NCBI RefSeq assembly: GCF_001282785.1 | Contig: NZ_CVUA01000001.1 | Span: 1,054,001 to 1,118,000, forward strand | Length of the DNA: 64,000 bases | Direction of reading: 5' to 3' | Source of the DNA: Halolamina sediminis | GTDB lineage: Archaea; Halobacteriota; Halobacteria; Halobacteriales; Haloferacaceae | Part shown: in pieces, positions 9,314-14,182 of the stretch | How the letters are laid out: every line of letters begins with the position of its first letter | How positions within the stretch are numbered: the stretch's first letter is position 1 | Translations under genes and position numbers: made by a program | Notes under the pieces: generated by a model | Database searches by the model: none | What the model was told of the DNA's origin: nothing | The model's input: only the letters and a program-made list of their open reading frames with translations

Positions 9314-10273
9314 ATGACGACACCGTTCAGCGGGGTCTACCCCGCCATGACCACTCCCTTCCGGGAGGACCGACGCATCGACCACGACCGACTCGCCGCC
9401 GACGCGCGGCGCCTCGAAGCCGCGGGCGTCGACGGGCTCGTCCCCGTCGGCTCCACCGGCGAGTCCGCGACGCTGACCCACGACGAGCACGCGCGGGTCG
9501 TCGAGACCGTCGTCGACGCCGTCGACGATGTCCCGGTGATCGCCGGCGCGGGCTCGAACGCGACCCACGAGGCCGTTTCCCTCGCCGAAGACGCCGAAGA
9601 AGCCGGGGCCGACGCCGTCCTGCTTATCTCGCCGTACTACAACAAGCCCGAGGCCGCGGGCTACCTCGACCACTACCGCACCATCGCCGACAGCGTCGAC
9701 CTGCCGGGGATCGTCTACAACGTCCCCTCCCGGACGGGGCGGAACGTCCCCGTCGACGTGGTGGCCGAACTCGCCGAACACCCGAACGTCCAGGGGTACA
9801 AGGCCGCCAGCGGCGACCTCGGCCGCGTCTCCGAGGTGATCGAACGGACGCGCGACGAGACGTTCTCGGTGCTCTCCGGCGACGACGGGCTCACGCTTCC
9901 GATCTGCTCGCTGGGCGGAACGGGAGCGATCAGCGTCGTCGCCAACGTCGAGCCCGAGCGCACGGGCGCGATGGTCGGCGCCGTCGCCGAGAACCAAAGG
10001 TTCTCGGCTGCCAACCAGAAATCGAAGATTTCTGGTGACGCCGCTGCCAGCGACATGGCCCGCGCCCGCGAGCTCCACTACGAGCTCGAACCCCTGATTC
10101 GCGACCTGTTCGTCGAGACCAACCCCATTCCGGTGACGGAGGCGATGGCGATCCGCGAGGACCACCCGCCGTACGTGCGCTCGCCGCTGACTCGGCTCTC
10201 CGAGGAACACCGTGAGGCGCTCCGCGAGACGCTCGCCGACCTCGCGGGCGGCGAGCCAGAGGTGACCACCTGA
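9314..10273 (+). CDS. dapA: 4-Hydroxy-tetrahydrodipicolinate synthase with in-frame palindromic insert
   Basis: First committed lysine-pathway enzyme; condenses pyruvate with aspartate semialdehyde. The 319-residue TIM barrel has the PVGSTGES pyruvate-binding loop, Tyr in IVYNVPSRTGRN, and the Schiff-base Lys163 in GYKAASGDL. Residues about 224-244 are an Asn/Lys/Ser-rich segment unlike the rest of the protein. The DNA there consists of two perfect 10-bp hairpins (9986-10008 and 10014-10036), yet the frame stays open. This segment falls before the helix MARARELHYEL and is probably a surface loop. dapB begins at the base after its stop codon. Confidence 0.93.
   Translation: MTTPFSGVYPAMTTPFREDRRIDHDRLAADARRLEAAGVDGLVPVGSTGESATLTHDEHARVVETVVDAVDDVPVIAGAGSNATHEAVSLAEDAEEAGADAVLLISPYYNKPEAAGYLDHYRTIADSVDLPGIVYNVPSRTGRNVPVDVVAELAEHPNVQGYKAASGDLGRVSEVIERTRDETFSVLSGDDGLTLPICSLGGTGAISVVANVEPERTGAMVGAVAENQRFSAANQKSKISGDAAASDMARARELHYELEPLIRDLFVETNPIPVTEAMAIREDHPPYVRSPLTRLSEEHREALRETLADLAGGEPEVTT
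9984..10036. repeat. Two adjacent perfect hairpins inside dapA
   Basis: GCCGAGAACC (9986-9995), loop AAA, GGTTCTCGGC (9999-10008); then ACCAGAAATC (10014-10023), loop GAA, GATTTCTGGT (10027-10036). On the minus strand the first unit occupies a 30-nt block (9984-10013) that begins TGGCAGCCG and ends CGGCGA, the same ends and length as the dapF unit. The A/T content is much higher than the surrounding gene, consistent with acquired sequence. Confidence 0.85.
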
Positions 10274-11919: not shown

Positions 11920-13193
11920 TGGTCGATCCCTCCGCAGTCCGGCGACTCACTGACTGGAACCGCGACACGCTGGACGCGCTCGCCGCGGCGCACGGCACGC
12001 CGCTGTACGTGTTCGACCCCGCGCGGGTCCGCGAGAACTGCCGGCGGCTCCGGGCGGCGTTCCCCGACGCCGAGATCCAGTACGCCGCGAAGGCCCACAC
12101 GGCCGAGGAAACGCTCCGGACCGTCCACGACGAGGGGCTGGCGGTGGAGTGCGCCTCCGCCGGCGAGGTCCGCCGCGCTCTCCGGGCCGGAGTCCCGGGC
12201 AGCGACGTGACCTACACCGCGGTCAATCCCCCTGCCCGCGACCTCGACAGCGTCGTCGAAGCGTGGGGGGAGCATCCCGAACTCACGATCACCGCCGGCG
12301 CCGCGGACACGGTCGACCGCCTCGCCGAACGCGGGTTCGACGGCCGTCTGCGGCTGCGAGTGAACCCCGGCGTCGGCGCCGGCCACCACGAGAAGGTGGT
12401 CACGGGCGGCCACCCCAAGTTCGGCGTCGGGCTCGACCGCGTGCCCGGCCTCGCCGCGCGGATCGACCGCGAGTTCGCGTTCGCGGGCATCCACGCCCAC
12501 GCCGGCTCGGGGATCTCGGGCGACGATCTCGACGACCACCGCGAGCTGGTCCGGCGGCTGGGCGATCTGGCTCGGGAGCTCCAACGGGACGGGATCTCGG
12601 TCGAGACGGTCGACGTGGGCGGCGGCTTCGGCGTCCCGTACCGCGAGGACGCCCCGGCGCTCGACCTCGACACTGTCGCGGACGCGACCCGCGAGGCGCT
12701 GGGTGAGATCGACGGCCGGCTCGCAATCGAGCCCGGGCGCTACGTCGTCGCCGACGCTGGCGTGCTGCTGACGCGGGTGAACACTGTGAAGGCGGCGCCG
12801 TCGACCGTGGTCGCGGGCGTCGACGCCGGGATGACGACGCTGCTGCGGCCGGCGATGTACGACGCCTACCACGCGATTCGGAACCTCAGTTCCGAGGACG
12901 ATCCCTCGCCGCGCGAGCAGGTCGGCGTCACCGTCGCCGGCCCGGTCTGTGAGACCGCGGACCTGCTCTGTGAGAACCGCCCGCTCTCCCGCCCCGAGTG
13001 CGGCGATCTGCTCGCGGTCGGCAACGCGGGCGCGTACGGCTACGAGATGGCGTCGACGTACAACTCCCGACCCCGACCCGCGGAGGTGACCGTCGACGGC
13101 GCGGTCCTGCGGCGGCGCGAGACGCTCGCGGACGTGCGCCGGCTCGACGCGGCGGGGGACTCAAACCGTCGGAACGACGAGGGGGACGTATGA
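11916..13193 (+). CDS. lysA: Diaminopimelate decarboxylase
   Basis: PLP enzyme that makes lysine from meso-diaminopimelate. The 425-residue product has the barrel start IQYAAKAH (PLP lysine), HAHAGSGISG, VDVGGGFGVPY, EPGRYVVADAG, and the C-terminal catalytic Cys in GPVCETADLLCENR. The start overlaps the dapD stop as ATGATG; ATG 11916 is used, with ATG 11919 equally possible. The dapF start overlaps its stop (ATGA). Confidence 0.94.
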   Translation: MMVDPSAVRRLTDWNRDTLDALAAAHGTPLYVFDPARVRENCRRLRAAFPDAEIQYAAKAHTAEETLRTVHDEGLAVECASAGEVRRALRAGVPGSDVTYTAVNPPARDLDSVVEAWGEHPELTITAGAADTVDRLAERGFDGRLRLRVNPGVGAGHHEKVVTGGHPKFGVGLDRVPGLAARIDREFAFAGIHAHAGSGISGDDLDDHRELVRRLGDLARELQRDGISVETVDVGGGFGVPYREDAPALDLDTVADATREALGEIDGRLAIEPGRYVVADAGVLLTRVNTVKAAPSTVVAGVDAGMTTLLRPAMYDAYHAIRNLSSEDDPSPREQVGVTVAGPVCETADLLCENRPLSRPECGDLLAVGNAGAYGYEMASTYNSRPRPAEVTVDGAVLRRRETLADVRRLDAAGDSNRRNDEGDV

Positions 13194-14182
13194 CGGTCGC
13201 GTTCGAGAAGTACGACGGCGCGGGCAACGACTTCGTGGTCGTCGACGTAGACGAGTGGAACTCGTCTGGCAGCCGGAACGCGCAGCGTTCCGGCGAGGCG
13301 GACGGGCACCCCGTCGAGGACCGCGCCGCATTCGTCCGCGTCCACTGCGACCGCGAGGTCGGCGTCGAGAACGAAGCCAGCGCCCGCCACGGCGCCGACG
13401 GCGTGCTGTTCCTCTCGTTGGACGCGGCCGCCGCCCCGGCGAGGGTGACGATGACGCTGGTCCAGCCCGACGGCTCCATCGCGGAGATGTGCGGCAACGG
13501 CGCACGCTGCGTGGCGGCGTGGGCCGCCGACCGCACGGATGCGTCGACGTTCGACATCGACACGCCCGCCGGCACTCGCCGCGCGGTCGTCGATGACGAG
13601 GTGGCCGTGGAGATGGGCGTGCCGACGTTCGACCCCGAAGACGTCCCACTCGCAGCCGACGAACCGCTCGTCGACGCGGCGCTCGACGAACTCGACGGCA
13701 CGCCCGCCGCGGGGCTAGCCGTCACAGCCGTGAACACCGGCGTCCCCCACGCAGTCGTCTTCGTCGGCGACGTGGACGCGGTCGAGATCGACGCCGTCGC
13801 GTCACCGATCCGTCACGCCGACGCGTTCCCGGACGGCGCGAACGTCACGTTCGCGTCGGCGGCGGACGAGGGGTTCCGACAGCGCACCTACGAGCGCGGC
13901 GTCGAGGGGGAGACGCGAGCCTGCGGCACCGGCGCGGTCGCGGTCGCCGCGGCGGCGAAGCGGCTCGGCCGGATTCAGGGGGGCGCCGGCTGGATCACGG
14001 TTTCCCCGCCGGGCGGCGATCTCGCCGTTGCGGTGCCCGAGGACGGCCCCGCACGGCTGCGTGGCCCCGCGAGAAAGCGCTTCGAGGGGGAGCTCCCTAT
14101 CCCCGAGGGCGACCGCGTCGCGGGCGTAAGCGGCGAGGCGGCGCTTGGCGCGGACCGTATCGACGACGGGCACGAGCGATGA
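13190..14182 (+). CDS. dapF: Diaminopimelate epimerase with in-frame palindromic insert
   Basis: Interconverts LL- and meso-diaminopimelate without a cofactor through two cysteines. Both are visible: Cys in EMCGNGARC and Cys in TRACGTGAVAV. The 330-residue protein is longer than usual 270-290-residue DapF. Residues about 20-38 (after VVVDVD) are a Ser/Gly/Arg-rich insert encoded by two hairpins (13249-13267 and 13272-13294). It lies in a loop after the second N-terminal strand, so activity is probably kept. The start overlaps the lysA stop and its own stop overlaps dapE. Confidence 0.93.
   Translation: MTVAFEKYDGAGNDFVVVDVDEWNSSGSRNAQRSGEADGHPVEDRAAFVRVHCDREVGVENEASARHGADGVLFLSLDAAAAPARVTMTLVQPDGSIAEMCGNGARCVAAWAADRTDASTFDIDTPAGTRRAVVDDEVAVEMGVPTFDPEDVPLAADEPLVDAALDELDGTPAAGLAVTAVNTGVPHAVVFVGDVDAVEIDAVASPIRHADAFPDGANVTFASAADEGFRQRTYERGVEGETRACGTGAVAVAAAAKRLGRIQGGAGWITVSPPGGDLAVAVPEDGPARLRGPARKRFEGELPIPEGDRVAGVSGEAALGADRIDDGHER
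13249..13296. repeat. Two adjacent hairpins inside dapF, ends matching the dapA unit
   Basis: AGACGAG (13249-13255) pairs with CTCGTCT (13261-13267). GCCGGAACG (13272-13280) pairs with CGTTCCGGC (13286-13294). The second lies in a 30-nt block (13267-13296) starting TGGCAGCCG and ending CGGCGA, identical at both ends to the block in dapA. The stems and loops differ between the two. Confidence 0.85.

Follow-up and report, generated by a model that had tools for sequence, protein, structure and literature searches.

The window, the whole stretch of 64,000 nucleotides of the Halolamina sediminis genome that was analysed, carries the genes dapA and dapF, and each of them contains a short segment made of two adjacent hairpins (all coordinates are on the plus strand). 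The dapA gene for 4-hydroxy-tetrahydrodipicolinate synthase (9314–10273) is an open reading frame of 319 amino acids whose product shows 83–89% protein identity with that of the intact dapA of other Halolamina-group genomes. Alignment with empty and filled orthologues placed a CGTC tag at the left end of the dapA copy (9982–9985), which is one side of an apparent 4-bp direct repeat as seen in the relative G066. It is followed by hairpin 1 of the GAG type, a 10-bp perfect palindrome with the sequence GCCGAGAACC-AAA-GGTTCTCGGC (9986–10008), the constant spacer TGCCA, which is TGGCA on the minus strand (10009–10013), hairpin 2 of the RGA type with the sequence ACCAGAAATC-GAA-GATTTCTGGT (10014–10036) and a GACG tag at the right end (10037–10040). 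By protein and DNA alignments, a segment of 57 bp or 19 codons (9986–10042) is common to H. sediminis and G066 and is missing in five other genomes of the genus and in Halobaculum. In the dapA of G086 (G086:C1:1395745-1396628, L193), the gene is broken into two frames near codon 138, which could be a frameshift or an assembly error.

The dapF gene for diaminopimelate epimerase (13190–14182), delimited by its open reading frame and orthologue alignment, contains a GAG-type hairpin 1 with the sequence AGACGAGT-GGA-ACTCGTCT (13249–13267), the final T of which doubles as the first base of the constant spacer TGGCA (13267–13271), and an RGA-type hairpin 2 with the sequence GCCGGAACGC-GCA-GCGTTCCGGC (13272–13294). 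The aligned segment spans 51 bp or 17 codons (13249–13299, edges ambiguous by a few bases) and is missing in five of six other genomes of the genus. The remaining one, G050, has a different insert of ~60 bp at the same place (L190 5341-5480), possibly a decayed copy of the element. The expectation that the segment is not universal among orthologues was thus borne out, as most DapF and DapA proteins are without it. The AlphaFold model of DapF has pLDDT <50 at residues 28–39 inside the insert and confident structure on either side, and the model of DapA, with a mean pLDDT of 62.7, was too low to place its insert.

The first-pass annotation of this DNA had described a 30-nt block in each gene, with identical ends and a palindrome between them. 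The coordinates given for both blocks were correct, and the blocks are the sole matches in the window to the pattern TGGCAGCCG-N5..30-CGGCGA, for which 0.03 matches were expected from 100 dinucleotide shuffles. Across the genome, nine matches were found forward as against four for the pattern read backwards, and the palindrome between the ends was present in eight of the nine; at L002, the second stem is unpaired at its outermost bases. The extra hairpin noticed beside the dapF block (13249–13267) is real and has its dapA counterpart at 10014–10036. The proposal of one element family in both genes stands, and the 30-nt block has to be replaced as its unit by the double hairpin. The identical “CCG...CGG” ends turned out to be variable stem bases agreeing by coincidence in the two copies, whereas the TGSCA spacer and the CGTC/GACG tags are the fixed parts of the unit. 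The opposite orientation ascribed to the two copies rested solely on TGGCA versus TGCCA, which are one base apart, and was abandoned; on the coding strand both copies have the GAG type first and then the RGA type. The dapF segment and the dapA segment both belong to this double-hairpin family, one copy each, and the family is real and beyond chance.

The general plan of the element was found to be CGTC-[hairpin]-TGSCA-[hairpin]-GACG, with stems of 7–10 bp and loops mostly of 3 nt. About 60 double hairpins of this kind were counted in the 2.84-Mb genome, far above the shuffle and backwards-pattern controls as the annotation had anticipated, and this count is a lower bound compiled from sequence stretches, a covariance model and patterns, with 150 of 1385 model candidates scored. 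When 400 kb were scanned for adjacent hairpin pairs with any spacer, 52 were found as compared to 7–14 in simulated sequence, and TGGCA stood between the hairpins in 10 cases as compared to none in five simulations with equal dinucleotide content. The covariance model, which was built from six copies, matched at least 108 places in the genome with both strands counted. A structured census gave 69 double hairpins, eight of which belong to an intergenic repeat termed family X, and 58 were used for the family statistics. The GAG type includes GACGAGAGC, GCCGAGAACC and others, the RGA type includes ACCAGAACGC, ATCAGAAATC and others, and fifty distinct stem sequences were recorded. The loops occur together with their reverse complements (GGA 16 and TCC 15; GAA 14 and TTC 24). 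The left tag is exactly CGTC in 34 of the 58 copies and the right tag is GACG in 24, and many of the remaining tags are near variants of these, with a minority of CAGG. A pattern for the short class matched once backwards in seven genomes as against dozens of times forward. Most copies in the genome were not classed as intragenic. Many of the intergenic ones are within a larger repeat, and such copies need not have moved independently.

Several arrangements were observed besides the common plan. Four copies (G000:C1:95599, 392186, 596606 and 2797226) form a sub-type in which the first hairpin has stems of the kind GAGGGAC/GCGGGACC and CGTC is replaced by a CAGG-like tag. Family X is several hundred bases long, has one CAGG-tagged double hairpin within it and is present at G000:C1:47213, 85034, 106944, 122738, 280361, 1507868 and 2388036; a compensated stem change (GCGAGACC/GCGGGACC) and the loop, GAA versus TTC, distinguish its copies from each other, and at one site within some of them a CGTC-type element is present. 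At G000:C1:170585-170735 (L018), six consecutive hairpins make up three tandem units with GACGT between them. At L004 1315-1560 (G000:C1 about 958270-958515), a double hairpin is flanked by an intact tRNA gene and by a second copy of the 3' end of this tRNA, an arrangement resembling an integration site footprint; for this locus ARAGORN returned no tRNA and Rfam only the intact one.

Pairing and covariation of the stems were measured in two classes. In the long class (17 copies), 98–99% of stem cells are paired and 14 of 20 stem pairs show change on both sides; the two-sided cells numbered 57 as compared to 17.3 ± 2.7 in shuffles, and pairing fell from 95% to 31–44% in slid controls. The short class (37 copies from six genomes) had 98.3% of cells paired and 138 two-sided cells as compared to 41.7 ± 8.6 in shuffles, which retain the bias of the gathering pattern towards purine-pyrimidine matching at some positions, and sliding the partner abolished the pairing signal. 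Covariation above chance, which the first-pass annotation had raised from two copies, was therefore confirmed, and because the copies are mostly paralogous these counts represent shared structure and not independent events.

A first comparison of flanks gave 542 pairs that were mostly paralogous intergenic repeats, and the comparison was hence restricted to pairs in unique genes whose flanks match over a long stretch. The seven orthologous filled pairs so obtained (dapA, lysS, uvrC, GT39, L337/L327, L340/L344 and, with weaker flanks, L061/L063) contain exactly two stem pair changes, both two-sided: C-G to T-A in the GT39 gene between H. sediminis and G002, and G-C to A-T between L337 and L327. 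In dapA, the loop of hairpin 2 is GAA in H. sediminis and TTC in G066 with the stems unchanged, an apparent loop inversion. The outermost A-T pair of the H. sediminis lysS copy is G-T in the relative, and no clear one-sided stem change was found at the orthologous filled sites. With an identity of about 84–96%, the flanks of the clearest pairs are less conserved than the stems. For uvrC, however, identity is 97–100% in the flanks closest to the element, pointing to local gene exchange. Exchange of genes between species, and not constraint, may thus account for the low stem divergence at orthologous sites.

Twelve intragenic copies of the H. sediminis genome were compared with relatives. Their hosts, named by reading the sequences except for DapA and DapF, are DapA, DapF, a PPC/DUF296-like protein, a GT39-like membrane protein, class I lysyl-tRNA synthetase, a histidine kinase, two S9 peptidases, an MFS transporter, UvrC, a phosphodiesterase and leucyl-tRNA synthetase. 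Empty sites in Halolamina relatives were found for the majority of the 12 (with a less clean alignment for the MFS transporter, and with the histidine kinase and GT39 outside the aligned set), and the length added relative to the empty site is 45, 51 or 57 bp, every one a multiple of three. The partners sharing a filled site vary, being G066 for dapA and lysS, G086 for uvrC and G002 for GT39, consistent with an insertion polymorphism that recombination has moved. At the junctions, CGTC usually stands on one side with GACG opposite, and the empty relatives have CGTC or GACG at or near the insertion point, while either motif occurs in 12% of 7-nt windows. The simplest reading of these alignments would be a 4-bp direct repeat with an element of core plus 2 bp, and the repeat may alternatively be a tag that the element itself carries.

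Strand and frame are identical in all 26 clearly intragenic copies across the genus, with the GAG-type hairpin first. Four of these had been assigned to phase 1 or 2 as the core boundary was off by one base, and their peptides still align; the number of events is somewhat below 26 because the dapA, L337/L327 and GT39 copies are orthologous to others in the list. The encoded peptide is like VDERSSSANRTQSDDV, with the general form V-[DA]-E-...-S-A-[NS]-[QR]-...-S-[GD]-D. Cores within genes have lengths of 39 or 51, plus one of 45 and one-base boundary variants, and lengths of 43, 46, 48, 49 and 50 occur as well among the non-coding copies. The 39-bp core class makes up 11 of 26 coding copies as compared to 2 of 86 non-coding ones in the genus, and 6 of 12 intragenic copies as compared to 0 of 46 others in H. 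sediminis. In the short element, the other reading frames are frequently open too, and the use of a single frame is therefore not explained by stop codons alone; selection for harmless hydrophilic loops would account for strand, frame and length. In one gene of G030 (L060 1454-1556), two tandem units are both in frame and encode the peptide VDETRSVSSASQTQSDDVDESRRLSSANQNASRSGDVD.

The covariance model found matches in 110 of 119 genomes of the same taxonomic family (E ≤0.001) and in 161 of 194 haloarchaeal genomes covering 62 of 65 genera (E ≤1e-6), and the copies in other haloarchaeal genera have the same plan. In a phylum-wide sample, only three genomes outside the haloarchaeal class gave matches (G277, G286 and G293), and these are of one genus in the same phylum.

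These results together suggest that the segments probably belong to a haloarchaeal family of short palindromic mobile elements that are non-autonomous and would be recognised by shape and moved in trans. In the strongest competing explanation, the segments would be the left- and right-end hairpins of a core-deleted PATE-like element of IS200/IS605 type, moved as single-stranded DNA by a Y1 transposase. Y1 proteins read hairpins, which makes Y1 an attractive candidate; structure-based recognition would permit variable stems, and the two near-terminal hairpins and the very short unit fit this origin, as do the abundance of PATEs and IS605-type elements in Haloquadratum in the available text of PMC3119063 and the intact Y1 genes in four genomes of the genus. 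However, the H. sediminis genome has no intact Y1 gene, only broken PF01797 fragments, and the relatives G050 and G086 carry elements without any Y1. Copy number also does not track Y1 number, G066 having one Y1 match and at least 45 element matches. Furthermore, PATEs make no target duplication according to the same text, as against the apparent 4-bp CGTC/GACG repeat seen here, which is possibly the element's own. No full-length element ending in these hairpins was encountered in the course of the comparisons. We therefore regard a Y1 remnant as possible but rather unlikely. The lack of an intact Y1 in H. sediminis and these two relatives also means that the family may no longer move there.

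A structured RNA or DNA-binding site under selection, such as a terminator, an mRNA stabiliser or a nucleoid-protein site, would agree with the nearly always perfect pairing and with most H. sediminis copies not being classed as intragenic. Nevertheless, it appears improbable, as copies are found within unrelated enzyme genes and are missing from orthologues, the reading frame is respected in every intragenic copy, no Rfam family matched the copies tested and a constrained RNA function does not account for insertion polymorphism. Chance GC-rich palindromes or codon bias at the DNA level can be set aside with near certainty even in a genome of 69% G+C that has more hairpins of ≥6 bp in 400 kb than simulated sequence (1635 versus about 1260), being refuted by the simulation and backwards-pattern controls above and by the precise absence of the segments in orthologues. 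A terminator or riboswitch, tandem repeats and a RAYT-driven REPIN were also rejected.

For the mobile palindromic family, the unit consists of a GAG-type and then an RGA-type hairpin with the TGSCA joint and outward CGTC/GACG tags. Movement, as judged by genome comparison, would occur by insertion at or beside an existing CGTC/GACG, and each insertion adds the core and a further 6 bp, which makes 45 or 57 bp and, in dapF, 51 bp. The mobilising enzyme, acting in trans, would presumably read the hairpin shape and not the stem sequence. A folded hairpin intermediate, in which one arm serves as the template for correcting the other and the loop can invert, would yield both the compensated stems and the flipped loops, and this model draws on three orthologous events and paralogue comparisons. 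Within genes, only frame-keeping insertions in the fitting orientation and frame would survive as extra loops, and the surviving frame gives a hydrophilic peptide rich in Asp, Glu, Ser, Gln and Asn.

Fungal mitochondria contain mobile double-hairpin elements with two tandem hairpins whose stems are said to vary with pairing kept; the haloarchaeal element differs in having CGTC tags and a non-mitochondrial host. The closest bacterial comparison is with the CGTC-tagged REPs (Di Nocera et al, 2013; PMC3733652), which form head-to-head dimers, are in some cases intragenic, have no dedicated transposase known and are described only in five bacterial phyla. Like these, the haloarchaeal palindromes are CGTC-tagged with the tags outward in the dimer, show complementary stem changes between copies and lie in some cases within genes. 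The REPs, however, have loops of 4–5 nt and stems of 8–9 bp with A-T almost always at the first two positions (PMC3733652), whereas the haloarchaeal loops are 3 nt in nearly all copies and the stems are 7–10 bp with A-T or G-C as the first pair and any second pair. Since loop length and stem start differ, membership of the CGTC-REP family is only partial. The haloarchaeal dimer also differs in joining two distinct hairpin types by a constant TGSCA spacer. REPs have an unpaired tail fitting CCA on the untagged side, and the TGSCA spacer, which the two hairpins share, contains CCA on one strand only.

The Rickettsia RPEs, including the CGTC-type RPE-4 and RPE-6, are likewise palindromic in-frame inserts in many unrelated genes, essential enzymes included. 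They are about 150 bp long (PMC10969869), and compared by description, the haloarchaeal insertion is distinguished by its 45–57 bp, its fixed two-hairpin plan and its archaeal host. GTAG REPs and REPINs (RAYT, TnpA-REP) resemble it as short hairpin pairs spread genome-wide without a gene of their own and recognised by structure, but the haloarchaeal element has CGTC/GACG and in a minority CAGG in place of the GTAG tag, the H. sediminis genome has no cognate intact Y1 enzyme, and in archaea only the IS200-type subclass 1.1 is reported and no RAYT-class enzymes (PMC6006769). The PATEs and small mobile repeats of Haloquadratum walsbyi share the haloarchaeal host and the small, transposase-free mobile form. 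In the available text of PMC3119063, the PATEs have near-terminal palindromes and are tied to IS605-type ends, and the small mobile repeats are about 80–110 bp with terminal inverted repeats and conserved sequence; for neither does this text mention in-frame insertion into genes with covarying stems. No archaeal example of such a palindromic element was found in the open-licence literature searched on the genomes of Halolamina, on REPs in archaea and on short repeats in haloarchaea. The best reading by analogy is that the haloarchaeal element is a variant working like the CGTC-REP head-to-head dimers and the Rickettsia RPEs, and not a REP member.

More tentatively, we propose a haloarchaea-wide class of shape-defined mobile DNA, which would pass through a hairpin state with arm copying and loop inversion, would be served by a non-Y1 enzyme and would include a gene-borne subclass with 7-bp stems spreading as a ready-made hydrophilic peptide of 15 codons in one strand and frame. 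Palindromic inserts within genes are known in bacteria as RPEs and REPs, and the CGTC class among them is without a known mobiliser. The natural filled and empty sites in close species, the compensated orthologous stems and the many genomes available in haloarchaea make the mobilisation mechanism and the origin of the paired stems testable. The element would also provide a route by which essential enzymes such as DapA, DapF, UvrC and the lysyl- and leucyl-tRNA synthetases gain hydrophilic loops, which may suit high salt.
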